Assembly: GCA_031213475.1 (NCBI GenBank)
Contig: JARUPZ010000029.1
Location: 7,899,290 to 7,963,289, forward strand
DNA length: 64,000 nucleotides
Origin: Nereocystis luetkeana
Lineage: Eukaryota > Sar > Phaeophyceae > Laminariales > Laminariaceae
Direction of reading: 5' to 3'
The notes below the pieces were generated by a model, which searched no databases, was not told the DNA's origin, and saw only the letters and a program-made list of their open reading frames with translations. A program made the position numbers and the translations under genes. This document shows positions 527 to 62,246 of the stretch, one piece after another (the first letter of the stretch is position 1; each line of letters begins with the position of its first letter).

Positions 527-3500
527 GTCAGTCTAGCTGCTTGCTCCAAATGGTGCCATACTTCCGGCATCACACGGACCTCGTGTGGGGAAGGACACTG
601 GTGGGAAGTGTGCCGGATACGTCAACAACAGCAGTTTAACTACTACGGGGGACCATAGTTAATAGAACCTACGGTACAAACAATAACCTATACCTGGTAT
701 ATTTTCCAATTTTTAGCGACAATATTTGGTCCTATTTACTATGGTCCCCCGTAATACCTGGTACTGTTTGCTGCTGCTGTTTGTACTCGTCTGTCGTGTC
801 TACCTGGTACCTGTTATCAGCTACCTGGTACCTGTTACACTGGTACTCACGGGAGTGTTGCGGACGCTGATCATGCCCCGGGCCTGTTTTACAGGTGCCG
901 TCGAGCGCTTTGGTTTGCGGCACAGGGGAACGAGCGTTTTGCCTATCTCGATTCTTCCGTATTGGCAAGGTCGACAATGCCAAACAAGGGGTTTTTGGAA
1001 ATATCTGGACTTCTCCGAAAACATGTACACCAGGCATAATGTTCAACTTTAACTTGACCCTCTCATTATTAGTATTACGGGGGACCATAGTTTAATAGGA
1101 CCTATGGTATACATAAAAACCTACCTGGTACCTGGTACCTGGTATATATTTAACAATGTTTACTAACAATATTTGGTCCTATTAACTATGGTCCCCCGTA
1201 ATAGTGGGCTACGAGTATACGAAAACCCGAGTATACTCTAATTCCAAGTGTTTTGTCCGCACGACGGAAGTGCAGTTCTTAGCACCCTTTCCGTTTTCGA
1301 GGAAACGAGCGCCGAGAAACGATTGCACTTTTTTTTTTGTTGAAGAAACCCCTGTCCACACTTATTTCTCAAGTTTTCGTGTACCGGTTCGAACCCGGTC
1401 GCACCTCTTCTGTACTGAGGACCTTTAACAATCTGGGAGAAGGGATCTTAAGGTTGGTAGGTTGTTCGGATGTTTTGGTTCCTGCTGGGATCAAGGCACG
1501 GACGAAGACCCAACCCAACCCCTGACCCTAACCCTAACCCTAACCCTGACCCCAAACCGCAGCCGAAACGGGCCAAAACTCGCCATAAACGAGGCTACGC
1601 CGAGTTTGCATCGAACCAGGAAATTTCTCAGATGCGGACGACGATTCCGAAGTGCAGACCACGCTACACATTTTTCAAGTAAAAAACATCCCTAAAGATC
1701 CCTTCTCCCAGACTGCTAAACCTACTCTTCTGTACTCGGTATACAAGCAATACGCTACCAAAGCGCTTCACGGTAGTTGTATCCTCTCTCAGTCTGTGAG
1801 CGCTGCAGGTCAAGAGACTACGATACTCAGAGTTCGAACTTTTCGCTATCATGTAGGCCGCCTACAGCGTACGCTATTCGACGTACGATACACCAGTAGA
1901 CTATACCGCTACACCATAGAGATAGCTGTGCAGCTATACATCCCGTTTTTCTCGCAATTGTTGCATACGGATTCCACACATCGGACAGATCGTGTACATA
2001 TCGTGTAAAGATTATATGCAGATCATCGATGTCCACTTGATGATCTAGATCCTCCAGGGCAGATAGGCTCCTGACCTGTAAGACCTAGCTCATGTTGCCC
2101 GGTGGGAACCACATAGCCTGCATGATCTATTAATAGGACGTGTTTCCTGAGTTGGATCTGTATTGTTCTGATCCTGCAAAGCATGTCATAACGGCGGATT
2201 ATGGTCGAAATGATCTTTCTGTAGATCGTGATGCGTCCCACGTGTGAATACATCCTTCGTAGAACATACCTGGTATGGTCTAAAAGGTACTACTCTGTCT
2301 CGAAATGTGAGAACCGTTTGGGTTGAATATTTATATGCAAAAGGTCCGTATATGCGGAGACAAAGTGGTACTGCTGTAGTAAAGTTCACAAATATAGTTT
2401 GAATCCCTCTTGAGCGGATTTTGGCGGCGCATTTCTTGTTGCCGAGCGCGTGGCAAGTCTTAGGGCCAGTTTTGTTTCACGTCGACACCTAAGGCAATGA
2501 GGCGTCCTTCTTTGATGGTGTTGAGATCACCGATCCTCTGATGTTGATGTGTGTGCCTTCGCCCTCTCATGAGGTTGATCCTGTCGACTTTCGACGCAAA
2601 AGAAGAAGAAAAACCTTGCCATGTTTTTTCCCCTGTGGATGTTGCGTATTTGAACTGGTTCGGTGTTTTTTTCTGACGGGTGGATGATATGATCGGGTGC
2701 CAATTGAAGCTACAGTAAGGTTTATACTTATCGGAGAGCGTTTTTTCCTTAATTTCCAAAGTTTGGAAATAATTGGAGATATGTATCGATATACGGAGGC
2801 GTTCTGCCACTGTTCGTGAAATTCTCCAGAACCAAAAAGATCAAGTTCGTTAACATTCCACTATTTGGAAAAAAAAAAAAACAGGAAAATATGGAAGATT
2901 GAAAAATTGCGCGAAAAAAATGTCGAAAACTTGGAAAAGAAAGCTCTCCGGTAAGAATGACCCTAAGAGATCGACCCTAAAGAGCGTCCTCAGAACACAT
3001 TGATATCGTGGACATATGTTACTATTACGGGGGGCCATAGTTAACAGGACCAAATATTGTTAGTAAAAATGGTCAAACATATAGGTTTTTATGTATACCA
3101 TAGGTCCTGTTATCTATGGTCCCCCGTAATACGAATAGTGGCATCACTGTCAGCACTCACTATCAGCAGCCTTGCGGTAGCCTTGCGCATCCTAACGGTT
3201 TCACTGCCTCATTCTAAAATACTGCTGGTACTAAAGTACTACTATAAAGTAGTACTTTAGTCATCTCTAAAGTGCTTCATTCATTGATAAACTCTACGTA
3301 AAGTACTATTACGGGGGACCATAGTTAATAGGACCTATGGTATACATCAAAACCTATACATTTAACCATTTTTACCAACAATAGTTGGTCCTGTTAACTA
3401 TGGTTCCCCGTAATATTCATACAAGTAGTTGAGGCTTCAGTGTCACATCGCCGCCGTTTCGCCCCCGCCAGCTGGCCAACCGGATTTTGTGGACGAGTCC

Positions 3501-6500: not shown

Positions 6501-9500
6501 TGATTCACACGTGTATATCGATTAGATCATACTATTTATTAATAACACAGCACTACTTCGAAGTATACATTCATAGACTAAATGTAGTATTGCGGGGGGG
6601 CATAGTAAATCGGACCTACGGTACACACACAAACCTATATATTTACCCATTTTTACTAACAATATTTGGTCCTATTTACTATGGCTATGTATGTACACGT
6701 TGGTATTAATAGCCCGAAGACACCATGTTGATGAGGCACGACCCAATGAGCGGTTCCTCGCCCGAGGAGACACGCCAGTCCAACCATCGTAGCTCCCGAA
6801 ACTAGCTCCCATACGGGAACATGGTTGGAGAGAGGAATGGATGTGTGTGTTTTTTGTTGTTTGCGGTTGCCATTGTGTTGGCCCCTCCTGGCTCGTGCGG
6901 GGCGGGTAGCGTAGTAAGGGGGGGGTGAGGGGTGCGTGATGTGGCGACCCAATGAAAAGTCAGCCGTCACGTGGTGTGCTTCTTTCTGTAGACGGGCCGG
7001 ATTTGCTGTCGGGCTGTAGGCGACGCACGGGTCCACGGTTGCTTTGGTGGTTCAAAAACAACGCCTTCTGTTGAAGCAGGCGTGTTCCAAATATCGGCGC
7101 AAGAGGTGCTCGAGACGGCGTGCGCCGGATGGCATGCAGCGTCGTCCCTCTCTGTCCGGAAATGTGAGGACAGGTTGGTCGTTGCTATGAATACCGAAAC
7201 ACTGCTTATATTCCCAGATTGTACCGTGTTTCGACCCCCTTGATCAGGCGGTAGGTCTCGCTTTTTTTGTGTGTTTTGGTCTTCATCATGAGGCTGTATA
7301 AGGCTGTCCAAACGCCGGCAGTGACCCAAAATAATATATCCAACCCTGACTACAGTCGCACCTTTTTCCTATCCCGGTAGCATGTGTTGTGGTTCCGCAA
7401 ACGTTTTTCGGTCGACCTACAATCGCACCGTTTTTCGATCGCGTTAGTTACGAAACCGTTTTCCGGCGTGGTTCGACCGCAAAAACCATTGTTTTCACCG
7501 GTTGTCGATGGACTCGCAGGCGCGCTAGTTCCATATAACTTTTGGAAACAATGTTTTTCGATCGACTTACAATCGCATTGTTTTTCGCTCGTACATTCGC
7601 CGAATTTCGATTGCGAAAATCGTCATTTTCACCGTTTATCGAACGACTTTCAGCCACGTGAAGACTTCGATCACGATACCACTGCATATCAACCATTTTC
7701 CACCGTCTTTCGATGGCGACATATACAGATATGTACCCTGCGGGACGCTATATGAAACCCATACTACGCGGGACCGAAGTATCTATCACACCCAGCCTGC
7801 AAAGATGAACCTCGACCGAATCCTCCATTTCAGACCTATGCCAATGGTACAGCGAAGTTGCAATAAAAAAGTTTGAATTTCAAAGATACCCGCCAAAAAA
7901 AATCAGAACACGCTTCCTATGGGCCGCGTAAAAAAAAAAAAAGTTCCTAACTTTTGGAGAAGCCCGGAAAAAGCAAATCTGGGGCCGATGTTGGCCCAAC
8001 ATCGGCTTGAGAAAAACTCAGGCCGATCTTTGGTTCGAAGCGGCGAGATTCCGAGTCCTCGACAGACATCGATCAACAAAACCAACGATTGCGTTATGAA
8101 TTCTGAACGGAGTGCGCTCGTTAGGGGCTCCGACCCACCCTAGGGTCAATGTCTTCACACCATGGCCGGTGTCATGTGGCGGGAGCTGACGAGGCGTATG
8201 ATAAAAAAACATTAGGCCGCTGGTTTGCACAAAACAGACGACAAAACTTCTCCATCCGTCTCGAATGGCAAAAAATAGACTTTTTTTCAGGTTTGGGAAG
8301 ATACCGTAGGACGCCGCCGGCAAGCTCTCGCCCCCTAGACCATAGATCCGCTTGATATCTTCGAGGCCGTCATCTATATTCGTTGGGCTTGCCAGATACC
8401 GAGTGGGTTGGCCGTGGGCTGAGTCTATGTCGAGATCGAGCGTCGATCGTCACACGAGCTGGTTTCGATCACCGTGTTGACAATTTGCGACCAGAAAAAC
8501 ACAAATTGCGCCGCCTGCAGCCGTTGGGGGAAAAAAAAAAAAAAAAAAAAACATTTTTCTCGTTTTTTCCCACAGCGGCGGTACGAGAAATTTTTCGGCT
8601 GTTTTTTTAAAGCGATATATTTGAAAAAAAACTTTTGAACTTCGCGTTTCCATTGGCATAGGTCTCACAGCTGTTTTTTTTTTGTTTTTTGTTTTTTCTT
8701 GTTCTAGATGCTGTACTTGTATACCAGGTATAACTAATCGTACGTCGCGTTTTTGTTTTGTTTTGTTTTGTTCACGTTGGTGACTGCGCTTGACCGTAAG
8801 GTGTACATAAGCGGAGCGGTCGATGACGCCGACCACATGGTTGCGAACGGCAGTGCTAAGGTCGACGACTTCAGATTTTTCTTGCATCTGTGCGGGTGGG
8901 CGCCCGGGCAGCTGGAGGCGGAGATCGCAAGGGGGGTGTGGTTTCCGGCGGCAACGTCGACCAACGTGAGTCCACCTCTAGACCTCAGTGTGTTTCATAC
9001 GTAGGGCTGGGCACTATTTTTATTAACATTACGGGGGACCATACTAAATACCAGGTAGGGCCTACGGTACACACAAAAGCCTATATATTTCGCTATTTCT
9101 ACCAACAAATTTTGGTTCTACTTACTATGGCCCCCCGTGATAGCGCAGTATGTACTGATTGACCTGGCCAGTATGTTCTTTATTGTGTATATATATGGCC
9201 GGTTTTTGGTTTTGCAAGCAGCATAGGTAGCATGCATGCGCCGGTTGCCAGGGGACGAAGGATATCCACAAGCAGTACGTACATCCCGGTTTTGGGGGCT
9301 AAACCACTTGAAAGTAAGAGTGGGATCAGGTATGCAGTAGCATTGAGTAAAAGGGCAGAATAAGGCAAGGGTTTGGGCATGGTTGGTAGGGTGTATGTAC
9401 CTTGTACAGTATACACACACTGTGGGCCACTCTAAAACCTACACACCCATCAACATGCTTTGATGGAAGTGTCAATATTAATAGTATCACACCATGATTG

Positions 9501-12183
9501 CGAACACGACTTTCGAGGAAATTTTTCGATGTCACTGGTCGGGTGTGCGTGCGTGCGTGCGTGCGTATGTTTTTTTTTTTGCAGATGAGCCGGTCGCCCC
9601 GGTGGTCTGTTAGCAAGTATTACTACCCCGGTGGTCTGTTAGCAAGTATTACGGGGGGCCATAGTAAAATAGGACCAAATATATACCTGGTATATATATA
9701 TATATATATTTTAAAACAAAAAAAAACAAAAAAGGACCAAATATGGTTAGTAAAAATAGGTCCATATAATGGTTTTTGTGTGTACCGTGGGTCCTACCAG
9801 GTATTTGCTATGGCCCACCGCGATAGTGGCTAACCTCGAATGTCACTACTAGTGTTGGAGTCACGGGTTCGAATCTCGGTATCGAAAATTATTTAGTAAA
9901 ATGGCGCTAACTGTCGAGAGCGCCTGCGAGCGTGGGTAGGCACAGCTACATTAGGCGCGCATCGGCGAGGGAAGAAAGCGTTGCCGAACCCTTCTCGCGA
10001 TGAAAACGCCTGCCAAGGCAAAAACCGTGCGTAGTAGTGGGGAGAGGGGGGGAGAAGGGCCTACCTACAACATGTACTTCGTATGTGAACCCGGGTCTGA
10101 GTTGCGGCTATTAAGAGTAAGAGGGACAGAGAGCAAGAGGGGCGACGATAGCAAATGAGATGGGAATAATATATTAAAAATATACTGGTATGTATCTACA
10201 CTCTCGATGTATCCGGGTACCAACCCGACTATTAGCAAGACTTACGCTGCGTGATCCTCTCGGCACGTGCTGCCGTAGCTAGCCAGCGCGCCGAGCGAGG
10301 ACAGCCCCTTCATCGACGGTGCTTAGCGGTGTGGAAGCTTGCGCCCTCGGAGCAATACGTAGTTTCCTGTCGAACATCACCCCATGGGGCATCCCGTGGA
10401 AGATCCTATTTTCCATGGGTCATCCCGTGGAAGATCCCATGTCCCATGGAACAATCAGAGGAAAACATTTCCCCATCGTAAAACCTAGCCCATGGCTACT
10501 CCCATGAGATTTTTCGTGGGACGCCCAATGGGAAAACTAGATGGGGTGTTTGCGATAGCCCCATTTGGTGGGGTTCCCAAAATGTTTGAAACGGACTAAC
10601 GTGAGGAGCGGATTGGCTAAAACAGGCGAACCAGAAGTTGCTCCGTTTGGCTAACCAACCCACAGAGTTACTCAACCCAATAATCCTCACTAGGTATAGG
10701 TCAAAAACGTTATCTTTTGGGTCACTATTTCCCTCGTCGACGTGTTTTCGTGCGTTGGGCTTGCTATTATATATCCTGGTGGGAAACAGACAGCAGGAAA
10801 CCCAACCGAACGAAATGATTCGCAAATGCCCTAGTGAAGCATTGCCCGTAGGTCCGATGGTGGACGGGTGCTTAGCGGGTCGAGCGTGTATCGGGACGAC
10901 GAGGGCGGTCGTGGACAGGTACCACTCGACGCTCTGCCCTTGACGCGGGGGATGCGTGGCTGTGTGGTGGTGACCTCCTAGGCACGCTTTGCGTCGTTAC
11001 TGCCGTACCTAGTGCGTGCTACCGCGCGGTAGAGGTGCCTCTATTGTGCCGCTTGAGTAGAGCCGGGTGGCCGCTGTAGTGCCTGACTCGTTCTACGATA
11101 GAGGTAGCACGTTTCCGCTATGTTGCTTCTGAAAGACGGGGTTCCTTACCCCCGTCTTGACTTCGAAAAACATTTTATAGACTTAGGGCCATGAAATTAT
11201 TCACCGCGATGCAATTTGATTTTTGCTGGAGTCAGTTTTCGGGCGAGGTATGGAGCTCCTCAAGGATGTACCAGTGTCGCAGTGTTCGGAGTAGTTGGTG
11301 CCGGTTGGCGCTACATATAGTGCCGGTGATGTTTGCTGGCGCATAACTCTGTTTTGTAGACCGGCACTATCGAGGGACCGTTTGCTGCATCTCGCTGCTA
11401 CTGTATATCGGCTGTGCTTGGAGAGGTGCGGCACGGTAGCGGCTGCGCTTCGGTGGTTCAATGCTGACGGCTGACACTCACGTTCTTCAAGGCTCACCGA
11501 TGTGGTTATCATAGCTGTAGTTTGACCAAACTCGGACGACGGAAGAAAGAGGAGAACCCGTGTCGCAAGGAAATGGGCAGGGCACGAGGACAGGGGAGAA
11601 GAGACTGTTATGTGACCCCTGGATCTGCCTTATACGAAGTATGACTACTGTATTACAAAGGAGGGAGCAGGGCCGACAAGGGCGAAAATAATAAATGGGT
11701 GAAATATTACCGGGGGCCATAGTTAATAGGACCAAACATTGTTGGTAAAAATACATAAATACATACTGGTATTTTTTTTTGTGTGTACCGTAGGTCCTAT
11801 TTACTATGGTCCCCCGTAATATCTCCGCCATCTATCTCTTAGGCTGTGCTCCGATTTTGTCAATGCTAACGACCGCGCTTCATCTATGCATCTCTCACGC
11901 CCGTGCTTCCAGTTCTTCGACGAATAGCGGCCCGTGCTTCGGGTCATCCATCGCTAACGGTTTCCTGGTGTGCTTGCAGTAGGAAATGGAATGCTGGTGA
12001 TTGTGACGCTTTAATTTCGAACGCCCCCGCTGTCGTGGCCTCTGGCGGTACGCGCGCGCGCACGCCTTGCAGGTAATAATGAAGCACTGTCTGGGGCTTC
12101 CGGTCCCGATGTGGAGGGAAGTGATGACCCTCATGGGACCGAAGTACGGACTGTTGGCGAGAGACACCTACGACGACCTCTGA
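1..12183 (+). CDS. AlgH/YqgE-domain (DUF179, UPF0301) protein gene, 5' partial, 5 exons visible
   Basis: Exons read as 1-526, 4406-4553, 6036-6109, 8801-8965 and 12073-12183; junction phases 0, 1, 0, 0 join in frame. The frame is open to the left edge, so the start lies outside. The first exon carries a long Ala run and an acidic/Lys-rich stretch, then the family start (NTPEKGCLIVAKS). Later exons supply the domain core: FILNRPT, the Leu/Gly-rich strand before LYLGGDVG, LHPYGPDKLAGSMEIVPG, the WAPGQLEAEIARGVW motif, and a closing LPVPMWREVMTLMG. This order is that of the AlgH/YqgE fold, a bacterial family also found in plastid-bearing eukaryotes. The biochemical function of the family is poorly known and I assign none. 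The N-terminus is missing, so targeting cannot be read. The four introns total about 11 kb and hold most of the repeats described below. Confidence 0.85.
149..207 (+). repeat. Coding (GCT)n, poly-Ala
   Basis: An almost pure GCT run inside the AlgH-domain exon encodes about 19 alanines in a row; likely length-variable. Confidence 0.95.
643..754. mobile_element. F1 palindromic MITE carrying a TACCTGGTA insertion
   Basis: Starts CTACGGGGGACC, ends GGTCCCCCGTAA, TA on both sides. Compared with sister copies it has 7 extra bases (CCTGGTA) at a TA near 691. Confidence 0.85.
1075..1201. mobile_element. F1 MITE with three tandem CCTGGTA insertions
   Basis: Complete TA-flanked copy, 29-bp arms matching. 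At 1122-1144 the internal AACCTATATATTT of sister copies is interrupted by CCTGGTA three times in a row. Confidence 0.9.
1520..1552 (+). repeat. Short interstitial telomere-type run
   Basis: CCCTGACCCTAACCCTAACC continuing for about five CCCTAA-like units. Confidence 0.8.
2030..2225. repeat. F6 repeat, old fragment
   Basis: GATGATCTAGATCCTCCAGG, CTAGCTCATGTTGCCCGGTG and the GTTTCCTGAGTTGGATCTGT block of the family. Confidence 0.55.
2717..2964 (-). mobile_element. F3 TIR element (inverted copy)
   Basis: About 245 bp, in inverted orientation relative to the copies at 28501 and 30943. It shares the terminal repeat ending CTCTCCGGTAAGAATGACCC and the internal motif ATTTCCAAAGTTTGGAAAT. Confidence 0.8.
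3025..3129. mobile_element. F1 MITE
   Basis: TTACGGGGGGCCATAGTTAA start, CCCCCGTAA end, TA flanks. Loop in the orientation AAATATTGTTAGTAAAAATGG. Confidence 0.9.
3309..3413. mobile_element. F1 MITE
   Basis: Complete TA-flanked copy of the TTAATA/TATTAA arm type, loop in the opposite orientation to the copy at 3025. Confidence 0.9.
3737..3847. mobile_element. F1 MITE with TACTGGTA variant insertion
   Basis: Complete copy with arms GTTAACAGG/CCTGTTAAC (a compensated change). It holds a shorter TACTGGTA insertion near 3783. Confidence 0.9.
3901..4006. mobile_element. F1 MITE, GTAAATAGG arm type
   Basis: Complete TA-flanked copy whose arms both read GTAAATAG/CTATTTAC, in place of GTTAATAG/CTATTAAC. 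Confidence 0.9.
4089..4177. mobile_element. F2 hairpin MITE
   Basis: About 90 bp. The left arm reads CCCTGTAGAACTGCAGTCTC and the right arm GGGACTGCGGTTCTAAAAGG; preceded by TTAA. Confidence 0.8.
4406..4553 (+). CDS. AlgH-domain gene, exon with FILNRPT motif
   Basis: Acceptor TTTAAG|GCG and donor TCG|GTGAGT (phase 1). It encodes AVIFLASHDENGSAGFILNR, the PTSVCLGDLLE segment and LYLGGDVG, the most conserved block of the AlgH family. Confidence 0.85.
4974..5062. mobile_element. F2 hairpin MITE
   Basis: Follows TTAA. Arms CCCTTTAGAGCCGCAGTCCC and CGGGACTGCGGTTCTAAAAG, with GGGGACAAA/TTTGTCCCC inside them. Confidence 0.88.
5199..5440 (+). mobile_element. SINE, old diverged copy
   Basis: A tRNA-like head (GGTGGCTTGGTAGATGG as box A; GTGGGTTCAAGTCTCACC as box B) is followed by body pieces found in the younger SINEs (AAAGGCACGTACCG then GGGGGGAGAAGGG). 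Confidence 0.6.
5430..5690 (+). repeat. 124-bp tandem repeat, about two units
   Basis: CGGCTTGTCCAGAAGTTTG begins at 5446 and again at 5570, with GAGTTAGGCTGGAAAGTAAA in each unit. It starts inside the old SINE body; an inverted single unit lies at 14925-15010. Confidence 0.75.
6036..6109 (+). CDS. AlgH-domain gene, exon with LHPYGPDKLAGSMEIVPG
   Basis: Acceptor CTACCGAAG|GG after a short pyrimidine stretch. The first two bases complete the split Gly codon left by the previous exon. The donor is GGG|GTGAGT, phase 0. The 74-base exon matches the strand before the VPGVY(L/I)GG motif. Confidence 0.75.
6590..6685. mobile_element. F1 MITE, right end lost
   Basis: Left arm and loop intact. The right arm stops after CTATTTACTATGG, where the terminal CCCCCGTAA is replaced by unrelated sequence. 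Confidence 0.85.
7833..8664 (+). mobile_element. F4 ~835-bp TIR element, copy 1
   Basis: Terminal repeats GACCTATGCCAATGG and CCATTGGCATAGGTC, continued by GCGAAGTT/AACTTCGC. Nearly identical over its whole length to the inverted copy at 34476-35314. A reading frame of ~100 codons (minus strand, 8323-8018) is conserved between the copies but matches no transposase I recognise. Lies in AlgH intron 3. Confidence 0.85.
8801..8965 (+). CDS. AlgH-domain gene, exon with WAPGQLEAEIARGVW
   Basis: Acceptor GTAAG|GTG, donor AAC|GTGAGT, 55 codons, phase 0 at both ends. It encodes VYISGAVDDAD, the FRFFLHLCGW helix and GQLEAEIARGVWF, all typical of the C-terminal half of the AlgH fold. Confidence 0.85.
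9029..9140. mobile_element. F1 MITE with TACCAGGTA inside the left arm
   Basis: Sister copies read AAATAGGACC; here AAATA-CCAGGTA-GGGCC, a 7-base gain at the TA (9049-9057). Confidence 0.9.
9649..9823. mobile_element. Rearranged F1 MITE with two TACCWGGTA insertions
   Basis: Both ends belong to F1. The interior is enlarged by a (TA)n/A-rich segment that follows a TACCTGGTA (9684), and the right arm is split by TACCAGGTA (9795). A 26-bp direct repeat (GGTGGTCTGTTAGCAAGTAT...) sits at its left edge. Confidence 0.8.
9828..10170 (+). mobile_element. SINE, old diverged copy
   Basis: Head GTGGCTAACCTCGAATGTC with box B CACGGGTTCGAATCTCGG, then GAGAGCGCCTGCGAGCGTGG, CTTCTCGCGATGAAAACG and GGGTCTGAGTTGCGGC. 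These parts appear in the same order as in the young copies. Confidence 0.75.
11090..11275 (+). mobile_element. F8 TIR element, one end lost
   Basis: Starts GTTCTACGATAGAGG. Shares TTCTGAAAGACGGGGTTCCT and TCGGGCGAGGTATGGAGCTC with the inverted copy at 25128-25363; the second terminal repeat is missing. Confidence 0.65.
11707..11819. mobile_element. F1 MITE
   Basis: Complete TA-flanked copy of mixed arm type, with a TACTGGTA variant near 11773. Confidence 0.9.
12073..12183 (+). CDS. AlgH-domain gene, terminal exon
   Basis: Acceptor CCTTGCAG|GTA, 36 codons, then TGA at 12181-12183. The encoded GLPVPMWREVMTLMGPKYG is the family's C-terminal helix (compare LP..LW..VL.LMGGKY in plant homologues). 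Confidence 0.8.
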   Translation, partial: VIMKHCLGLPVPMWREVMTLMGPKYGLLARDTYDDL

Positions 12184-15100
12184 TATTTAAGCTCGTCCTC
12201 TCATCTTGATATTGCTCTCTTGTCTTAATCTTGTCCTCGGGTCCTAATCTCGTCGACCGTTTTTTTTTGTGTCGCCATCTGCTGTTTTTCATGGAGCTAA
12301 GACTTTTAAGCTGGGATTTCTTCTGCTTTCCCTGCGTAAGAAACGTTGGGGGAAGCGAGTCTGCGACTGATTGTGATCGTGTCTACTCGTGCGCAGTAGT
12401 AGTAGTAGTTTGTTTTTTTTTCTTGCAGTTTTTGAGGCGACGGTGGGGACGACGGTAACCGTGTCGATATTTTTACGGCGGCGGCTTTGCCGCCGCGCTT
12501 GTCCCCCCGACGTTTGTCTTTCTTCTCGCCGCAAAAATAAATCGTCTTCCCTCCACAGTAGTCCCGAGTGACTTGTAGCCTGAAGGCAGGTGCAGCTTCC
12601 AAAGAGGTTAGCCGCCAGTTGCAAAGGGGGTATAGCCGACGGGGTCTGGGGTCCAAATTGGTGGAACCGGTGTGGTGCGCCGTCCGAATGAAACCGGCGT
12701 GGTGCGGGATAGGACATGCGCGGGTCTCGTCTTTTTTTGGCTGCGTGCGCAGGCGATGGGGCTGTCGAGTAGCAGGTAGAGACTGCAGAGCCTGTCGCGC
12801 TGGCGCTCCGCTGTGAGCGAGAAAATAAACACTGTTCAGCGAAAGATTATTAACCGGGAAAGGGTTTGCGCGCGAAGCAGACTACCGCCGAGTTACATTG
12901 AAACCCTTTTGACACGCATTTTATACCTGGAGGGGCGTGAAGTTATTTAGCTTTGCTTTCACCTATCCGCCGGAGGACAGCAAGAGGAAAGAAAAAAAAC
13001 CGGGTGGCGAGAATGTGTGATTCTCGTTTTCTGACGACAATATTACAAAAAAAAAAAACGCCGTATCGTACCGGTAGCTCGCACAGGTGCAGGAAGGAGA
13101 CCAGGGTCGCGTCTCTCTTGCCAGACGTTTGCAGTATCAAAGAGAGCTGCCGCACGGCGGGCAGAAGGGGTTCATCTCGTGGTCGAAAGAAACGCCCTGA
13201 TCCCGAGTCGCGAGGTGGGAAACGGAGGGCTGTGTTTTTTTTTTCAGCTGCAGTTGAAAAAAAAAAAAAAAACGGTCCTGTTGAGAGGAGGAGGAGCCGT
13301 CGGACATGTTGGGTGCTGAATCTTGTACGTAGGGATGATTTTTTTCTTGGCTATTTTGTACAGTATTGAACAGGTCTCAGGCACTTTTTTCGCGGGAGTT
13401 TCAAGTTTTTTGTGCGAAATCGACCGCAAGACAGGTCCTGCTGTTTTTGGCCGGCGTCTCGTCGAGGTCGAGGTCTGCTTCGTCCCGTGCCATCAACTCC
13501 TCTAGCATATTTTTTTATGATCATTCACGTACGAGTGATATTTTGTATTGTCGCGACTATCGAGCTCCTTCGGCAATGGGTCGTCCGATGCGAAACGCTC
13601 TTTTTATACCAGGTACCTATACCAGTACGTACGCACGTACGTACGTACGTACCAATACGCAAGCATCCATTTTGGTTTTCGAATTTCGCTGCCCATCGTT
13701 CACCTCCGTTTACCCTTTTTTTTTGTTGCCGGTCGTATTTCGTAGCTGGTACTCTACCTGCACGCGTATATACGAGGTAGTTTTTGTTTTTGTTTTTGTT
13801 TTTTGCCACCTCACGTAAGTTTTACCTGTGCGTCCGATGGGACATTGGCGGGGGTATATGGCATTTTGGTACTAATTGTAGAGCCCATCAACATAATTCG
13901 TCGGCAATTTTGGGCCATTTTGGGTATTTCGGCTCCGCCAATTTTTTACCAAAATGGCGGTATGATGTATGCGATGTCGGGACGTGTTTTCATGCCAAGC
14001 ACGATGGTACCTTGGTATAACACACCAGCAGCATTTGTTGTCGCAAAGCGCATTGATAGAATGCCTGGTTTCGGTAGAAGTAACGGGCGACGAGGGGAGT
14101 AGGTGTTCGCTGTCGGTGTCAGTCGTTGTCGCTTGCGATGCGTGCGCGCTGTAGAAGCTGCCAGCTGACGTCACACAGCTTTTGAACGAGAAGAATCGTG
14201 CCTGCCTCCTGCTGCTGGAGGTGTATGTACAGCAGGTGCCATTCTGACTCGCGGAAGTTGTACTCGGATATAGGTTTACTTTTTCCTTCATGAAAAGTAA
14301 AAAGTGTGTGGTGTTGCGATTGGCCTGGCGGGATACGAGAGAGAGATATCGACGGCAATCCATCGCGTCGCGTGATCAGCAGCATCCAGCATCCGATTGA
14401 CCAGCCACCAACTACTGTGCTACCGCGGTACTGCACAGCAGTACGTAGGCGCACATTACAAACCAATATATCAATTCAAAGATCAGCCAATATATGAATC
14501 GAAAGATGAGGTGTTGTGTCTTAACTGCGCCGAAAAACAAAAACTGCCTGTTGCAAAAAACAAAAACCCGGAAGGACGAGAACAAACAAACACAACCTCA
14601 ACCAACGCACCCTATTACTCTTTCTGCTAGAAGTGCATGGTGGAATCACAGCTTGGAAGTGCTGACCTGGTATACTACTACTGTAGATAGACCTTCTGCA
14701 AGTATTCTGCAAGTATTCCAACATCTCAACTGGAACACCGTGGTTCGGGCGGCAGCTAAACAGTAGGCACCAGGTACCGAATTTTCTGAGACAGAACAAA
14801 GACCATCTGCAACAGTCCCAACATTCAAAGCGAAACACACCGTGATTTTTTTACACGGTCGTCGTGCAGTTTACTAGGAGGTACTGGCTGTAGCATTTTG
14901 ATAGTTTTTTCTTTTTAATCACCACTTTTACTTTCCAGCCTAACTCGTAGAAGGTTATATATACCCTCATCAAACTTCTGGACAAGCCGTGGTCAAAGGC
15001 GTCTACCCTTCTCCTCCCCGGTGTAGGGTGAAAAATCAACCGGATACCCCCTGCAAACTGGTCAATACATCAAGTGGAACACCGTCCGTGGCACGGTCGT

Positions 15101-16410
15101 CATGCAGCTCAAAAGGAGGCCAAGGTACTACAGGTAACTGCACCGTCACAAGCTACCCAGATATTAAAATAGTGCAGAGAACCGCCCGGGAACTAAGTAT
15201 GACAAAAGCTAGGCAATCACCAAACTATTACGTGGCAGGTATGCACGGATCGGTATATAGCCCTACCACAGAAAGGCCATCTCTTTTCGCTATCGTGCAC
15301 TCAAGTCACCACCCGGGATAAAACAAAAAAAACAGCTAAAGATCATGTGTTACCCTAGGTCTCGGCAAACTCGGTCGACTACAGCAGGCTAGGTAGTACT
15401 ATTTTTTCAATACGGCGCTTCACAATAGAGAGGGCCTAAAACAACTTGGACCCATCCACCGTCCCCCCACCGAATCAGACAAGCTCTGCCATCATTCCGG
15501 AAAAGAGGATAGCTGGACAAGGCGGCTACATGATCGAGCAAAAAGGGGGCACCACGAAGACAGACGACTATAAGTCACGCACGTGCACACTTCGATGCTG
15601 GAGACTGCGCGCCGGCCACTCGATTTGGGCGTTCCAAACGATACCTGGTATGATATATGGGCACGCCCCACCTACACATCCACCATCGCAGCCCTTCGTA
15701 CCGACGACGAAAAAAGAAAAAAAAAAAATGGAACAAACAGCGAAAAAAAAAAAAATGAAACAACGGGCGAACCTAAAAACGACACGGGTCCGCCCTCGAC
15801 ACGCCAGTGAGTCTTCTTCAAATGATGGTGAAGATCAGGATTTGGGGAAACAAGTAAAAAAACGCCTTTTAAGCGTCGAAACCCCCAAAATCCCACCGAA
15901 GTTCGTTTGACCCAACGCTGCACTGTATGTACCGAAACGCATACCTGGTATACGACTGTAGTTTCAAGTAATACGTCCCCGATACGGAAGTGCAGTCTTT
16001 GAAAGGCCTAAAAAAACTTTGGCGCCGGTTCCGCCGGTGTAGAAAAGGAGCCCTGCCTCTTCCAAACATTTTCCAGTAAACTCACCACAGCGAAAGGTGG
16101 GCGGGTGGGGGGGACCCCACTCCTCTTCCAACATATTCCTAACGTGAACGTGCGCAGTGAACAAGTACGACACCCGCCCCAAAAAACAAATAACGACGAG
16201 GCGGGCGAGCACCTTAGCGCATGCACTCTTTGTTCTGGCTTTTCCAAAGAAAAAAAAAAAAAAAACGGCCCCTTCCTGACATCCTGACATCCTAAACAAA
16301 AACTAACCCTACTAATAATACTCATGTTGAAACGACACTACGCTGCCATGCCATGCCATCGAGCTACACGCCAGATCGCCGGGTTCGCACGCGCCGAAGG
16401 GTCATCGCCC
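12184..16410. other. Convergent intergenic region without a recognised gene
   Basis: This lies between the stop of the AlgH gene (+) and the stop of RNR2 (-). Reading frames here are short, rich in homopolymer-coded residues (from A, T and GTA/CTT runs) and match no family I know. It contains a (ACGT)n-like stretch (13625-13652) and a segment at 14925-15010 that matches, inverted, the 124-bp tandem repeat at 5430-5690. I see none of the F1-F3 families here. Confidence 0.5.
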
Positions 16411-16578: not shown

Positions 16579-19500
16579 CTGGACAAAAAAAAAGGCAGCG
16601 GTCCAAACATGAAAGCATCGTGAGGCGGGAAGGCAGCAGTCGTTTTTTTTCAGGATCACACAACTTGTACCTCTTCGCTACCATAGCAGACATACATGCG
16701 GAAGGAAGCTGGGTGTGCTGATGACTATGCTGGGTAGAAAGAACGGTATAATGTCAAGACACAAAAACCAGGCTAAAGAGAACACAAAGAGCCGGGGGGG
16801 GGGGTGGGGGGGTGTACTCGCTAGGGGATATGTACTCGCATTCATGCATGGCCGTAGTCGTATGACCATAGACCCTCGCATCCCTACAATGCCGGGACGG
16901 AGCATGTCGGGGTTTCACCGACCAGGCAGGCATTGCTTGCACCGAGCGCAAAGCGCCGTGAGGTGTCCGGCGAGTCGCATGAAGGGTGAGCTGCATCCTA
17001 CTAACAATCGCTTGAGAGGCGGACTTGCATATGGACGACAGCTTCAATGAGTTGATTTAATTTCCGGTGTAGGCATTTCCAGAGACAGGCATGGGAGTAC
17101 CATGTAACTGCCTCTTGGGTACCTTACCATAAACTCTACGTGATACGATCATAGTGCGGAGCGATGGTTGTTCACCTCGCACAAACGATCTACTACAACT
17201 CGGCAACCAGCTGTGACCGACAGCCAAAACAAGAAAGAAAAAAAAAGCGGTACCCTGGTTGTCTAGCTCACGTTGGGAGCGGCATGTTTTACAGTGCCGT
17301 TGCCAACAGACGCCAACCCAACCTATATATACTAAGGGCGGTGTACTCGACACTAGGCGCGCGGGGGGGGGGGGGGAGGGAGGGGCGGGGGGGTTTCCAT
17401 GTCACGCATGGCCGTAGTCGTATGACCATAGACCCCCGCATCTCTACAAGGCTACAAGGCCGGGACGGGGCACGTTGGGTTGAAAACTTTGAAAAAGGCC
17501 ATGAGATAACTCAGTGTGATAACAGCAGCAAGTCATACGATATTTCATTGCGTGTCTAATAAAAACGACCCTCCTGTCCCTTGTTGTACAACGGATCCCC
17601 GGGCAAGCGGTACGGAAATTTTAAAAAAGGGAAAAGTCCGTAATCCAGCACTCTGACACCAAAACGTGCCGACGAAAGCGGCAAACAAAAAAAAACGGTG
17701 CCAGTCATAATTGTAAACTAAGAACTTCGGCCGCCACGGCGGAGCTGGGGTGGGCAGCAAGCAGGAGACTGCAACATCGACCTTGTTCCGGCTTGAACAA
17801 AATGGTTGTAATTTAGTCGATAGCTCAAAATCTTGACCCTAGCCGGTAAGATTGAATACAACAAACGACTGATTGCCGTATACGCTTAGCACTCAAACTT
17901 GCCCCCAACGCGGAAGGTTGCAACTAGAAAGGAACACAAGCCTGAACCTATGACTCGGAAGGCTGCACAACAACAACAAAAAAACCCAACAAAACTGGCG
18001 CACTCAAACTTGACCCTGACCGGGAAGGTTGTGGTGGGTAGACCTTGCCCCAGCGACAACAGATTGCTATAACATATCAGAAAACAAGCCTGACCTTAAC
18101 CCGGAAGGCTGCATAAAATTAAACATGTTTACAAGATACTGGAACTTGAACCGCACCCTTCCCCTTTCTCTATTGACCCAGACCGCCTGGGATTTTTCTC
18201 GGAAGCCTGGGAATTTTCCCAGAATGACGACGAAAAAAAAAAGTTAATGTGGACAACTATCAACCATTTTTTCGAAAGCTGGGCCTACTAAAGGTTTACT
18301 GAGGAGTGAGGATGGACTACCAACCAAGCTGTCCAGCCTGGGCCTGCTCGTAAACGACGAGCAACATCGTCTGACATAACTATGCCCACCTTATCGTAGC
18401 CGAGAGATCCCAGCATTCGGTCCGCCACGAACTCGATGTACTGAGCCATCACCCCCGCGTTCATGCCGATGAGGCTGCACGGTAACGCCTGACGCAACAG
18501 GACAAACGACATAGGCATGCAAGAGAAATCAGCAACATCGTCGTCGATTTCCGGGAAGTTTCCGGGAAACTTACAGTCTACAGTAGGAAAAGGTGACACG
18601 TTCACTCCAGTAGGAAATAGGCAGAACCCGTAGGCACGTGCTGAACCGCCCGATGCTGAGCCCCCCCCCCCGCGCCCTCGGCACTGCTGTTGATCGCCTG
18701 CATGTCGTGCTTGAAACAACACGACTGCCGTAACGAGCATCACTCATCGCCTGCATGTCGTGCTCGAAACGAAACGACTGCCACAACGAACACCCCTCAC
18801 TCTTTCAATGAGCAGCAGTGCCGGGGGGGGCGGGGGCGGGAGAGGGCGGGAGGGGAGCATCGGGCAACAGTCGGGGCACGAGTACCAGCACTTTTTCATG
18901 TGTCGCACTTTCAGCCCAAGGGCTGCCTACTACTTCCTGCTGATGGCGATGAGGCTGCACTTTCAGCCCAAGGGCTGCCTACTACTTCCTGCTGATGGCG
19001 ATGAGGCTGCACTTTCAGCCCAAGGGCTGCCTACTACTTCCTGCTGATGGCGATGAGGCTGCACTTTCAGCCCAAGGGCTGCCTACTACTTCCTGCTGAT
19101 GGCGATGAGGCTGCACTTTCAGCCCAAGGGCTGCCTACTACTTCCTGCTGATGGCGATGAGGCTGCACGGTAGGGTCCGGCACGACGCGATAGGACACAG
19201 ATTCCAGAGACGCCAGCGCCCACCTAAACAGTCGTGTAGCCTTTTGTTAGCTTTTCCGAAACACCACGACGACCACACGGCACACCACGTTTAGGCTGAA
19301 CCAATAAATCGAGGCTACCCACTACGCACCAGCCGCGCACCCGCAAACACCAAACCACACCCTTTCCCCGTCCTGCAAAAAAACGCCGCAAGTGGGTTTC
19401 CATCCTGAACCAACCCGCAAATATCCCTCCCCCCACAAATGACCCACATCACAAGCCGCGCGCCCAACATCATACCAGGTATCACACTCTCCACCATCCT

Positions 19501-22500: not shown

Positions 22501-25500
22501 TACAGCAGATCAAACACCACCACTATGCCCCAAAACACAAGGACATATCGGGTAATAATACAAACACCGAAGGTCCCTTTTTAATTTCCGGATATCGTAG
22601 TTTTTTCCTTTCTTTTTTGCTCATCCCATTCATTATCTTCGTACATCTTCTTCTCTCTCTCCTTCCAACTCGTAACTCAGATCCGGGGTCACATAGCAGG
22701 CTCTTCTACCCCCTTCCCGCCACGGTACGTGCCTTCATTTTTATCGCGAGAAGATTTCAGCATTTTTCTTCCCTCGTCGACTCGCATCGAATTGTGCCTA
22801 CCCACGCTGCAAGGCGCTCTCAACAAATGAATCCCTTCGATTTTTATTTTTGCAAATAAAGTCAAATGTCCGACCCACCTGGGGCTCGAACCCAGGATTC
22901 AAACACAAGTAGAATTCGAGGTTAACCACTTGAACCACCGGGGCGACCGGCCTGCAAGGTACTGGCTACTGAATAGCGCACGGCGCTTCGGCGAATGCTT
23001 CTCGGTCCGAGCACTTTATCAAACTTTCAGGCAATACGCCTCTGGAAACAAGACTTGACCCTTTGAGGGCAAAACCGAAGTCCCATTTCGGGTACATACC
23101 AGTCAAAATCATGAGTACTTTGTCCTCAAAACGGGACTGCAGTCCCAAAACACTCGGCACACAATGGTCGGCTTGGCTCACCCTTCTGCTGGACGCACGG
23201 GATGTTGTTGTAGGCGTTGAAGAGGTTATCTCGCGCCTCCCGGTCCTTGATGTATGTGTCAAGTAGGAGGGCGTACCTGCTCGTTTCCACGATACAAAGA
23301 AAATAAACGAGTGGGCTCGTAATGGCTGGTGAGCGGAATAAAAAAAAACACACACACACATTGGACAGGTCAAGATCCAGACGACGATCAAAGTGGATCA
23401 CGCTCGAGTATCACGATCTAGTATCACGATCTGTTACTAGCAATATCTAGATCACGATGTACTATCACGATCTAAGATATTATCTTTGCTTTTTGTGATG
23501 TACCGTACGTGTCCCCAACACCCGGGCGCGTATCTGCTCGCTCGTTTTGGCGATAAACAAAAAAAAACTTCGTGGACGCAGTCTTTTGGAGAAAAGCTAG
23601 AAACCGAAATGATAGGGAAAAGAGGCTCACTCCGATCGAGTGTCCTCATCAAAAATTCAATTTTCGAATCGTACCCTTTAAAGAACGGGCGATCGGCTAA
23701 AATAACATAGTTTCTAGTGTACCTGGTAACTAAAACTACGTTATATACAGCAGAGTAGGGGTGGGTTGCACTGTTTACCCCAGATATTACTGTAGGCTGC
23801 ATGTACATCGTACCCCCAGCACCTTTCCATGTGTCGGCATCCCGACACTTTGCATCTCTCACTTTTCAGCGTCAATTCCGTCTTCTACGTACATCCGCAC
23901 ACATCGTGGCTGTCATCCGGTGTCGCCGAGCTAGTGAAACTTAAGTGCCCATCAATAACTGCGATAACCCTACACCAGTCATGCACAACACATTCGAAGA
24001 AAAACAAAAAAAATCAGCTGTAAGATGTAAAAAAAAAAACTTGAATACTCATTTTTGCAAGCTTAGTGCGATACGCATACCAATGATACCACCATTGCTA
24101 CTGCTACTATTACGGGGGACCAGAGTAAATAGGACCTACGGTACGCACAAAAAACTAAATATTTCGCTGTTTGTACTCACAAAATTTGGTCCTATTTACT
24201 ACGGTCCCCCGTAATATGATCAAACCGTCCTACGGGGCGTGTATGTGTGTATCGATTAATACCTGGCATGCAGCGGCACAATAGCAGTGCTGATACTTAC
24301 CCTGGTACCACTCTGTCCCGAAATATAACGACATCTTCTAGCTTGATATTCAATGTAAAAGGTTGTTCTAAATTTAGGGACAGAGTGGTATCACATTATC
24401 GAAGCTGTTGTTTGTCTGCCTGTTCCGCCGCGCTCACATTTCCTGGTGGATCGATTCCATGGCGATCTGGAAGCCGTAGAAACACCGAGCCTCGGGCAGC
24501 TGCACTTCCTGGCTAAACCTCTCAACCTATCAAGAAAGTCACGTCAGGAAAAATGTAACGGCACGTCACGAGCCGTCACGAAACGAAACAAAAACCAAAC
24601 GCCACCACGCGTCACGAAACGTCACCACACACCACACACCACATGCCACGCCGCGCCACGAAACGTCACGAAACGTCGCGAAACGTCACGCCACGCCGCG
24701 AAACGAAACAATAACAAACGTCAGGACACGTCACGAAATGTCACGCCATGCCACGAAACGAAACGACAACAAACGTCGCGACACGTCACGAAATGTCTAC
24801 GACGCGTCACGAACCGTCACGAAACGTCGCGAAATGTCACGACACGCTACGAAACGAGACAATACGGAATACCACGACACGAGACGTCACACGAAACGTC
24901 AAGGTACTCCCGAAACGCCACCAAACGTCACAAAGCAGCACACCAGATTTAGCTGTCAGGCAGGGAGGGGGGACTGCAACAGAAGGTCACACTAACTTGC
25001 AAGCATCAGCGTTCAGTTAACTCGACCTCCGGCCACTGCCAAGGGTGCATCGCAGCCGAACAGCTATCGCGGACAAGCGCGTGAACAGAGCAAGCGTGTG
25101 CCGACATGCACGGTTGCTCACCGAGGCGTTCTACGATAGAGGTCCACCCTAAACTTTCTGAGGCTGCACACGTGAGGAGCTCCATACCTCACCCGAAAAC
25201 TGACTTCAGCAAAAAAAAAAATGCATCCCGATGACTAATCCCGTGGCTCAAGTATACAAAAACGTCATTTTCGGAACAAGGTTGGCAATACAACGATTTT
25301 GGGTTAAGGAACCCCGTCATTCAGAAACAAAATAGCGGAATTGTGCTATCTCTATCGTAGAACACGTCCACCACGACCCTCCTCCGTCATGACTCCGCCG
25401 TTACCCGCTAACAAGGCCGATACCATGCTCGCGAAAGACAGCTCACCAACTTATCCATGACCATTCCGCCCCCCAGTCCCAAACAAGGCCAACACCATGC

Positions 25501-33010: not shown

Positions 33011-58072
<25,062 letters not shown>

Positions 58073-58076
58073 GCTA

Positions 58077-59600: not shown

Positions 59601-60524
59601 TCCCTGCCACCACCGTCTTCTGCCACTCCCTTTTTTCTCGTAGGGGGGGTTTTCCGCTCCGACCATGGGCTACCAGGCGGGGCAAACCGAGACTTGATAA
59701 CCGGGGCATCCATCGCGGCACTGCTATTGACGACAATGTGTTTTGTGACAGGAGAGCGGTCTTTTCGTGTTTTGCCTGGACGTCTTTTTTCCAGAGTGTA
59801 CTAGTCTTAGCGTAGGGGAGCGCTCAGTCACGGGGTCGACCCGTGATCTTCTGACATATTTGCTACTGCCTGACTGCCTGCTGTAGTACGGGAGGGGCTA
59901 ATGTTGTAAGCAGAGCCCACGATGGACCCAAACCCCAGGTACCTCCCTCAAGTTTACACAATAGTTTTGGGGTATGATTACTATTCATATATCCCCCCCC
60001 CCCCCGTGATATATCTTCGAGTCAGCATCGTGCGCGTTCGGGCGTTAGGCCGCGGCTGCTGTGCGTTGTCGTGCTGCTATATCGTAGCCACAGCAGCAGT
60101 AGCAGTCTTTTGAATTTTGAAAATATAGAAGAAACAAAAACTATTACTGTAAAGCTGGGATAACAGATTTTTTCCTCAAAAAAATATTTTTTTGCAAGCT
60201 TCGGTGTGACATAGTACTTGGATGATTATTGTGACGTGTTCGTAGGTAGCGGGTTTGTGCTGCACGAAAACTGTCAGATTTTGTAGACCAAGTATGGCAG
60301 CTACGTACACAGCCCGCAGTACGAGCGATCGAAGTATCACTCAGTAGTATTACACACAGCGTACAAATACTATTATAGGTGCTTCGACGAAATCCTTGAT
60401 CACAAAGCTGACGTGTTTTTTGTTTTGTTTCCTTTTTCTATTGTTGCTGGGATCCTCACATACATGGTAGATTGCGTTGGACACCATCCTCTTTTTGGCC
60501 CGTGGTATAGTACCTGGTAGCATT

Positions 60525-61225
60525 TTTTCATGTGGTGCCTTGCCAAGCGTTTTGATCCTTGCCGGCCATGTTAGCGGCAGGCCGCGGGTGCGACATGTTT
60601 TGGTGCTGCGTTTCGATAGGGTCTACAACCGCGGCAATCTCGCTGTGGGCCTGCCAAGGCTGTCGATCCTTTATGTCGACGTATGGTAACGTTTTTGCTG
60701 TGGGTCTGGTAAGTGAGGCGTTTGCCCCTTCCTGGCCATGGGAGCATGTTCGCGGGGTGTCTGTCAAGGTCTCCGATCCCTCCTGGCCATGGGAGCATGC
60801 TTGCTGATCCATGTCTGCCAAGGATTGTGGTGGTTTCTGATCGTGGTTAACAAAAAAATTGCGGTGTGTCTCTTCCAAGACTTTCGCCCCTTCCTGACTC
60901 GTATGGCATCACGTTTGCTTCGTGTCTGCCGGCGAGTTTGATACTTACTGACTGTCGTAAACCATGGTATATATATATATATATTATATATATATATTGT
61001 TTTTGCTTTGTGCCTGCCAAAGCTTTGTTTGACCCTCGCCGGCAATGGCAGAATTTTGCCACGTACGTGTCTGCCTCGGCTTTTGAAGCTTCGTGGCTAC
61101 ATACGGTAGTTTTTTTTTTTCTTTGTGTTTTGACCATAATTTTCTGCCCTCACTGGCCATGGCGGCCTTTTTGCGGCGTGACTGTGTAACCGCCAAGCAC
61201 GGCGTTCTATGCTTGGCGCGGCTCG
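60525..61225 (+). repeat. Degenerate ~55-bp minisatellite
   Basis: About ten loose units built from TGTCTGCCAAGG, then GATCCCTCCTGGCCATGGG and GCATG. Frames across it repeat SHGQEG-like peptides, which I take as a by-product. Confidence 0.6.
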
Positions 61226-61296
61226 CCGGGGTATGGGCCTCCTGCCTTCTCCCTCTCCCTTCCGCCCCCTCCATGTAGGTGTTGCTCCATTTTTTT

Positions 61297-61374
61297 AGGG
61301 GGCACATAGTAATCAGAGCCAAAAAGTAATAGTGAAAATACTGGTACTGGAATATATACTTCAATTATAGTTTT

Positions 61375-61413
<39 letters not shown>

Positions 61414-61630
61414 TTTTTTTCTTTGCTCATCCCATTTATTATCTTCGCACATCTTCTTCTCTCTCTCCTTCCAACTCGTAACTCAGATCCGGGGACACAT
61501 AGCAGGCTCCTCCCGCTACGGTACGTGCCTTCATTTTTATCGCGACAAGATTTCAGCCTTTTCTTCCCTCCTCGTCGACTCGCATCGAATTGTTTATGAT
61601 GGGTCCTGATTACTATGCGCTCCCCCATAA
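61297..61630. mobile_element. Degraded F1 MITE split by a truncated SINE
   Basis: Left arm GGGGGCACATAGTAATCAGA near 61299; right arm GGGTCCTGATTACTATG and CTCCCCCATAA at about 61597-61630. A (GT)n run and a head-less SINE lie between. Confidence 0.7.
61410..61593 (-). mobile_element. SINE lacking its tRNA head
   Basis: Tail and body as far as CGACTCGCATCGAATTGTT; the head half is absent, as in 5'-truncated retroposons. Lies within a degraded F1. Confidence 0.8.
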
Positions 61631-61631
61631 C

Positions 61632-61633
61632 AA

Positions 61634-61702
<69 letters not shown>

Positions 61703-61703
61703 C
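61632..61703 (+). repeat. (TTA)n microsatellite
   Basis: About 23 TTA/ATT units directly after the degraded F1. Confidence 0.95.
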
Positions 61704-62246
61704 ATTTCTCTTGCCATCCGACAATGTGCAGCATGATCTTCAACATGGATCACTCATAACTTTCCCGGAAGAAAAAAACCTCGAAAGATCTATAGTAATA
61801 TCTCTGATGATAGTGTGTTATCGAGGGCTTTGAGTTGGCTGAAGTTCCCCTTCTAGATACTACCGCGCAGTTGGCTGGCCAAAGAGGCCAACTAACCGAC
61901 TTTAGTCCGACTAAAGTGAGACGAGCGAATCGAGCCAAAAAAAAAAACCCGGCCCGAGGGGGGCCCGCTGAAGGCGCCCCCCGAGGGCCCGCCAGAGGCA
62001 CCTCGAGAGGATTCCTCCGAAGGCGCTGCCGGAAGCGATACTTACGCTATTTGATGTTACATTGTACTACGCGCCGAGCCTAATTCCAAGTATTAGTCGT
62101 AGTAGTGGCTGTCTCTCGTGACAAAACCGATTTACCTGGTATCATCTCCCGAAAAGTCTTGAAGCTGGTGGTGGTCGCAAAAAAAGTGGTTACCCCACCA
62201 CTGCAGTACGTACGTAGCGGTCTGGGAAAAAAACTAATTATTAATA

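Follow-up and report, generated by a model that had tools for sequence, protein, structure and literature searches.

A repeated word and its insertion at TA

The DNA considered here, called the window, is a stretch of 64,000 nucleotides from the brown alga Nereocystis luetkeana (contig JARUPZ010000029.1, positions 7,899,290 to 7,963,289), in which the palindromic nine-letter word TACCWGGTA (W being A or T) is scattered among copies of a small resident transposable element. An earlier note, made from the letters alone, had called this word hugely over-represented, with at least 45 copies, and had read it as the likely excision footprint of a TA-targeting transposon. The window holds 46 exact copies, every position named in that note being among them, whereas 100 dinucleotide-preserving shuffles hold 0.55 on average and never more than 3. 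The genome-wide count that the note had proposed as a check finds the word 182,395 times, and the reversed control word 1,744 times, in 465,085,209 bases on 1,987 contigs, a density of about one mark per 2.5 kb of genome. The excess, in the window and in the genome, is confirmed as genuine and far beyond chance.

Besides the window and the whole genome, we used a sample of 264 kb and one of 324,412 bases, the latter made up of the window and fetched stretches (loci with L-numbers), to which four short loci were added for the comparison of paralogues. The 46 copies in the window form 40 arrays, of which 36 are single, two double and two triple, and T stands at the centre of 28 copies and A at the centre of 18. 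With C or G at its centre the word occurs once in the window, where 0.77 copies are expected; in the 264 kb it occurs 9 times against 2.6 expected, and the exact word 126 times against 2.7. Among the literature matches listed, we noticed no description of TACCTGGTA as a transposon scar.

We call each occurrence of the word a scar. The resident element is a miniature inverted-repeat transposable element (MITE) about 110 bp long; it is flanked by TA, its inverted repeats read TTACGGGGGACC..., and it is common in the window. A profile built from scar-free copies gave 66 nhmmer hits on both strands, which were grouped by eye into 35 places, fragments included. The scars, and the MITE copies that carry them, are as follows.

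642..756, plus strand: MITE copy of the TTACGGGGGACC family; nhmmer hit with a 7-bp insertion, scar 691; scar 755 starts on its right-end TA
691..699: scar TACCTGGTA inside MITE
755..763: scar TACCTGGTA at MITE right end
801..809: scar TACCTGGTA, then an apparent eroded second unit
822..830: scar TACCTGGTA, then an apparent eroded second unit
1073..1203, plus strand: MITE copy with triple scar (MITE profile)
1122..1144: triple scar, centres T, T, T
2267..2275: scar TACCTGGTA
8722..8730: scar TACCAGGTA
9028..9142, plus strand: MITE copy with scar 9049 (MITE profile)
9049..9057: scar TACCAGGTA inside MITE
9648..9824, minus strand: MITE copy, two partial profile hits, scars 9684 and 9795
9684..9692: scar TACCTGGTA
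9795..9803: scar TACCAGGTA inside MITE
13607..13615: scar TACCAGGTA
15642..15650: scar TACCTGGTA
15942..15950: scar TACCTGGTA
19473..19481: scar TACCAGGTA
23720..23728: scar TACCTGGTA
27666..27674: scar TACCTGGTA
28276..28284: scar TACCTGGTA
29649..29657: scar TACCAGGTA
29741..29749: scar TACCAGGTA
29887..29895: scar TACCAGGTA
30103..30111: scar TACCAGGTA
30210..30218: scar TACCAGGTA
31303..31318: double scar, centres T, T
33689..33711: triple scar, centres A, T, T
34077..34085: scar TACCTGGTA; a short match to L012 has plain TA
34120..34128: scar TACCAGGTA
34231..34246: double scar, centres A, T; paralogue L032 has plain TA
35502..35510: scar TACCTGGTA, apparent eroded neighbour to the left
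36089..36097: scar TACCAGGTA
38704..38712: scar TACCTGGTA
41112..41234, minus strand: MITE copy with exact scar 41171 and mutated scar 41211 (MITE profile)
41171..41179: scar TACCTGGTA inside MITE
41211..41219: one-letter variant scar TACCAGGTC inside MITE
49421..49429: scar TACCTGGTA in a (TATG)n microsatellite
49583..49591: scar TACCTGGTA in a (TATG)n microsatellite, phase kept on both sides
50599..50607: scar TACCAGGTA
51539..51547: scar TACCTGGTA
52492..52608, minus strand: MITE copy with scar 52552 (MITE profile)
52552..52560: scar TACCAGGTA inside MITE
53444..53452: scar TACCAGGTA
54325..54333: scar TACCAGGTA
60511..60519: scar TACCTGGTA
62133..62141: scar TACCTGGTA

Other copies of the same MITEs, microsatellites and further repeats have plain TA at the corresponding place, so that the word arose as a 7-bp insertion at a TA dinucleotide, of CCWGG together with one TA. 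Among the 35 MITE places, read by eye in the better-aligned orientation, there are 11 insertions of at least 5 bp. Six of these are exact scars (hits 642, 1073, 9028, 9824, 41234, where it is the second insertion, and 52608), the one at 1073 being a 21-bp insertion of three units relative to the profile. Four are one-letter variants (TACCAGGTC at 41211, TACTGGTA at 3783, one of the same type at 11764 and TACCAGGGTA at 19991), and one, in hit 40396, is unrelated; this tally does not include the partial hit at 9648, which extends into scar 9684. Two scars lie within (TATG)n microsatellites, and removing the seven letters at 49583 gives a repeat phase that is continuous across the site.

For the paralogue comparison, 143 arrays with 60-bp flanks were taken from the 324,412-base set, and 50 of them had a paralogue. 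In 23 of the 50, at least one paralogue aligns without gaps and has plain TA, at identities of 74–97%, a few of these cases depending on matches of 74–79%. The best empty sites outside MITEs are those for L003:9234 (96.6% with L004), L004:7767 (94%), L004:455 (92%) and L003:6519 (87%), and the double scar at 34231 in the window is matched by plain TA in L032 at 84%. Of the remaining 27 arrays, 20 have a scarred paralogue but none with plain TA (12 of these arrays belong to a single near-identical repeat family), and seven show poor alignment or some other difference. The form TA-CCWGG-TA, derived from a plain TA as the earlier note had it, is therefore supported by empty paralogous sites. A long inverted repeat at about 5060–5593 of L003 carries mirror-image scars in both arms.

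The sites entered are not a random choice of TA dinucleotides. The 60 outward flanks of 30 arrays that lie neither in MITEs nor in microsatellites are 72% A+T at positions +3 to +7, against 54% at other TA sites; tested singly, positions +4 to +7 show a significant excess and positions +1 to +3 do not, and from +9 on there is no excess. T stands at +1 in 45% of flanks against 29%, and at +6 in 50% against 25% in the control; at +3 it is found in 49% of all 80 flanks and in 40% of those outside repeats, against 28% in the control. The preference is short and symmetric, and a transposase picking its target would leave such a profile.

The footprint reading and its alternatives

We consider it likely that the TACCWGGTA copies are inherited footprints left by the excision of a cut-and-paste transposon that targets TA and has ends near 5'-CCWG(G). 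Such a transposon would insert at TA, duplicate it and later depart, and the inserted letters would be the tips, 5'-CCWG or 5'-CCWGG, of its inverted repeats. Cutting would leave two identical tips, single-stranded, that pair with each other except at one W–W mismatch, which repair would settle as A or as T; copies lying within repeats would then be inherited. A tip of five nucleotides, CCWGG, would form four pairs around the mismatch, and one of four, CCWG, would pair through its three inner letters, in the manner of Sleeping Beauty's CAG, and be filled in to CCWGG. A stagger of four or of five nucleotides fits, and a three-nucleotide tip, CCW, the two copies of which would meet only at the mismatch, is unlikely. 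Membership of the Tc1/mariner/pogo group is likely but unproven, as neither the transposase nor the inverted repeats of the element were seen.

Several results weigh against this reading, foremost among them those of the search for the parent. In the approximately 324 kb searched there is no TA-flanked element with CCWGG inverted ends. In the window, pairing every TACCWGG half-site with those up to 12 kb away gives nothing but MITE pieces and chance pairs, and the 102 half-sites in the 264 kb are close to what chance (about 80, scaled from the window) and mutated scars together would supply. De novo searches of the same 264 kb for TA-flanked inverted repeats, and for 12-mers recurring after TACC, yielded no sequence that we took as an element end; the signals were the scars themselves, parts of MITEs, duplicated or palindromic repeats and simple repeats. 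Of 130 half-sites inspected for a break at TA in paralogues, 53 had paralogues and seven were flagged; by eye these lie at or near the ends of MITEs, pogo elements or other repeats, and they define no consistent element boundary.

A genome-wide search for shared extensions beside scars, in dimer context, covered the classes [AC][CGT], G[ACG] and T[CGT]. About 100 matches listed for each set of 233, 237 and 1,540 sites were read by eye, and no element end was seen among them. Among the matches listed, the repeated extensions that were traced, including those in a near-identical scar-bearing repeat family, lie in repeats that remain similar to each other on either side of the scar; another repeated extension is a local triplicate on C2. 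Look-alikes ending in GAAAGCAAGG or GAAAGCAAGAC were rejected as element ends, for they belong to a dispersed repeat with an internal (TACCAGG)1–4 and with similarity on both sides of it.

Transposase domains lead no closer to the parent. DDE_1 has 28 matches in the genome (no control genome matched); DDE_3 has none, its controls having matched, and Transposase_1 has none, although no control genome matched either. Twelve of the 28 DDE_1 matches were checked for ends, most loci being read for 1.5 kb on each side, 11 of them tested together for inverted repeats and L030 separately, and these 12 loci have no clear pair of CCWG(G) ends. Inside a long palindrome, L031 has an inverted pair with tips CCAG and CGAG, which was not counted as CCWG ends. 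Clear terminal inverted repeats (TIRs) were found at two of the loci, and both begin TA-CAGT...

L036, 3653–6260: pogo-type TA-flanked element around a DDE_1 match, inverted repeats CAGTGGGGGGCCC...
L032, 237–2420: pogo-type TA-flanked element around a DDE_1 match, inverted repeats CAGTACCGGCC...

The resident pogo (DDE_1) elements were accordingly set aside as the source of the scars, as far as these 12 loci go. In viral contigs, neither the triple scar nor the MITE tip has a match.

Two further points weigh on the same side. The scars are strikingly uniform, whereas known pogo and Stowaway footprints vary more. In addition, a dispersed repeat family (L043–L056) contains an internal (TACCAGG)1–4 at one place, before a purine-rich stretch; one query gave 49 matches, the 14 copies read have A centres only, and in many pairs similarity continues on both sides. 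Arrays of this kind are inherited and can change length without new insertions. It follows that 182,395 counts copies and not events, and we accordingly lowered our confidence in footprints slightly and raised that in slippage or inheritance of stacks.

Since a scar is added at each departure and resident copies need not accumulate, many scars and few elements are compatible. The element may move, or have moved, often and keep very few resident copies, or it may have died out, and the best reading is that the parent is low-copy, lost or unrecognised. What the earlier note had predicted, an abundant TA-flanked element with CCWGG ends, did not appear in the 324 kb, among the genome-wide matches listed or at the 12 DDE_1 loci. 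Its proposal of an excision footprint otherwise gains from insertion at TA, the symmetric target, the A-or-T centre, stacks with unlike centres and a second pair of scar and element. Its analogy with a Sleeping Beauty scar carrying five-nucleotide overhangs holds in its logic, of which five nucleotides are not a necessary part. A bolder proposal, which we put forward only tentatively and hold to be rather improbable, is that of a "hit-and-run" lineage of DNA transposons. Such a lineage would depart again from nearly all the sites that it enters and survive in very few copies, or in DNA outside the assembled chromosomes; with a stagger of 4–5 nucleotides, against three in Sleeping Beauty, it would produce a permanent and uniform 7-bp record, and its scars would be preferred landing sites for later insertions.

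The second pair concerns the resident MITE. The word TATTAATA, which has the form of a TA-TTAA-TA scar, occurs 51 times in the 264 kb against 1.4 expected; in the window it stands at the following positions.

Window 2128, 6537, 6704, 9476, 28047, 31878: TATTAATA, second scar, TA-flanked palindrome TA-TTAA-TA
Window 33401, 39017, 40006, 48856, 62239, 63235: TATTAATA, second scar, TA-flanked palindrome TA-TTAA-TA

In its outward flanks the frequencies are 0.50 for G at +1, 0.47 for T at +2 and 0.49 for A at +3, and at 31 MITE ends they are 0.61, 0.58 and 0.61; this profile is unlike that of TACCWGGTA. The shared flank preference suggests that the word is probably the excision footprint of the MITE, for which it would suffice that each end left a three-nucleotide tip, TTA, and that the two tips paired through their last two letters. 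Four near-identical repeat copies (L039–L042; alignment A1, columns 450–455) differ by a 6-bp insertion, two having CTAG and two CTATTAATAG, and this difference is a polymorphic MITE scar between repeat copies. With a second matched scar and element, it seems that excision repair in this genome generally yields uniform palindromic scars. TACWGTA is in excess as well, though less so (110 against 37.9 expected in the 264 kb), and this would perhaps fit the resident pogo-type elements that begin with CAGT.

Among the alternatives to the footprint reading, the one that survives best, although we regard it as unlikely, is that some process inserts the seven letters directly at TA, by micro-insertion or templated end-repair, with no element departing. 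It would account for the failure of the searches to find a parent, for the great uniformity of the scars and for their stacking at one spot. It is opposed by the centre, which is A or T, both states being found at like sites, as annealed inverted-repeat tips predict. The target profile resembles that of a transposase, and a MITE of this genome is the probable parent of the TTAA scar, both of which also count against direct insertion.

Stacking deserves separate treatment, because slippage of the 7-bp unit, or inheritance inside repeats, could generate stacked copies. The 113 arrays of the 264 kb are 102 single, nine double and two triple, and a random choice of TAs predicts about 1.8% stacked; genome-wide there are 15,917 overlapping dimers, against 2 for the control. 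In 4,522 dimers the centres are A then T, in 1,856 T then A, and in the remaining 9,539, obtained by subtraction, they are alike. Slippage or inheritance would be favoured by this last class, which at 60% exceeds the 50% of fully independent events, by the A-only centres of the dispersed repeat described above, which is one source of the like-centred surplus, and by paralogues of L005 in which a double scar and a single one share the same centre. However, 6,378 of the 15,917 dimers (40%) have unlike centres, while C or G centres are rare, and slippage of one unit cannot be their source, so that many stacks are repeated events. The A-then-T order makes up 71% of these 6,378, a bias that would be expected if a new insertion prefers a TA whose outward third base is T, as at single scars. 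Slippage accounts for part of the stacks and not for single scars, and as an explanation of the phenomenon it is distinctly improbable.

The manner in which the scars decay bears on their inheritance and on function. One-substitution variants number 136 in the 264 kb where about 57 are expected, 127 of them (54.3 expected) at the outer four positions and nine (2.6 expected) at the centre. Transitions make up 61 of the 127, against 18.5 expected, or about 58% of the excess, and the divergence is roughly 7% per site if all scars are of one age. This pattern is erosion rather than that of a constrained binding site. Programmed elimination of DNA in the body was considered and rejected: the scars are common to all four near-identical repeat copies and decay with age, and they are therefore inherited. 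A six-letter variant, TACCWGGGTA, occurs 10 times against 1.5 expected in the 264 kb; it is perhaps an imprecise footprint or a slipped G.

HIP1 is a highly iterated palindrome, and a word that is palindromic, very frequent and spread through the genome invites comparison with it, or with a protein-binding site. Nevertheless, we give very little credence to a functional or mutation-driven motif, since in MITEs and microsatellites the word arises through insertion at TA, the empty sites speak against such an origin as the main cause, and the abundant one-letter variants, rich in transitions, are as expected of unconstrained decay.

CCWGG is also the EcoRII/Dcm site, and excision by a CCWGG-specific nuclease of the restriction type, followed by religation, would leave the same scar. 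Although a mariner element of an algal virus, Mariner-1_OLpv, is described as combining a transposase with an EcoRII C-terminal domain (E-value 1.1) and a C5 methylase (excerpt of PMC3627910), EcoRII-C has no match in the genome (no control genome matched either), and we hold this origin to be very improbable.

Other features of the window

The earlier note had placed no exact copy in a coding exon. Coding sequence was compared with the scars for one gene, for which tblastn gives five exon-like intervals of about 1.4 kb in total, where about one copy is expected by chance. One of the 46 copies, at 8722, overlaps such an interval (8711–8971) and is placed before the stop that precedes the open frame 8738–9001. 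The first gene of the window is of AlgH type, its named relatives being led by proteins of Ectocarpus and Hapterophycus, with Ascophyllum lower, in keeping with a brown alga. An open frame on the minus strand at 28890–29612 encodes the beginning of a small chain of ribonucleotide reductase (PF00268).

The window also holds repeats of other kinds. A long array of 10-bp units (CGAACC/CGGTTC type, 37 overlapping register copies) runs from 42267 to beyond 42746, a tandem repeat with a 52-bp unit, several units of which are identical, occupies 18853–19220, and a short interstitial run of CCCTAA-like telomeric repeats lies at about 1515–1555. The segments 7887–8583 and 34563–35261 form an inverted repeat pair, and this repeat recurs in L013 and L016.

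Significance and known systems

The activity of a transposon is usually judged by its resident copies, and here departures are recorded in huge number with no resident copy seen. Scars alone can thus expose elements that are invisible to repeat annotation, and for one element they give its target preference, relative ages and re-use of sites over a long time. Each scar also enlarges the non-coding DNA by 7 bp. With a matched pair, the TTAA scar and the MITE, in the same genome, the footprint reading is testable.

The CAG tips of Sleeping Beauty anneal to each other with a central mismatch, and the scar has the form TA-CWG-TA. Its overhangs are of three nucleotides, at the 3' ends (excerpt of PMC7827188). 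As in the case described here, Sleeping Beauty and other Tc1-mariner elements have a TA target that is duplicated, and their scar consists of the tips of the inverted repeats, as is proposed here; they leave three letters between the TAs, whereas here there are five, very uniform, in 182,395 copies, and the element is not seen. Stowaway footprints retain TIR fragments of 1–4 bp (excerpt of PMC1925063). Scars of Stowaway and of plant mariners combine TA with short and heterogeneous TIR fragments, in contrast to the nearly constant five letters of Nereocystis.

The pogo superfamily, too, targets TA, and its DDE_1 genes are present in this genome, but the two resident elements with clear inverted repeats begin with CAGT. 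Passer, a member of this superfamily reported from stramenopiles, leaves footprints of 0–4 bp (excerpt of PMC9976928), compared with five letters between the TAs here. For Ectocarpus, 17 families of Mariner-Tc1 elements with 11,912 copies have been described, in a paper whose main text does not contain the words excision or footprint. A further parallel is within the same genome: like the presumed parent of TACCWGGTA, the resident TTACGGGGGACC MITE family has inverted repeats flanked by TA and, as its probable scar, a uniform palindrome, TA-TTAA-TA, and it differs in the sequence of its tips, in its target preference and in the abundance of the element itself.

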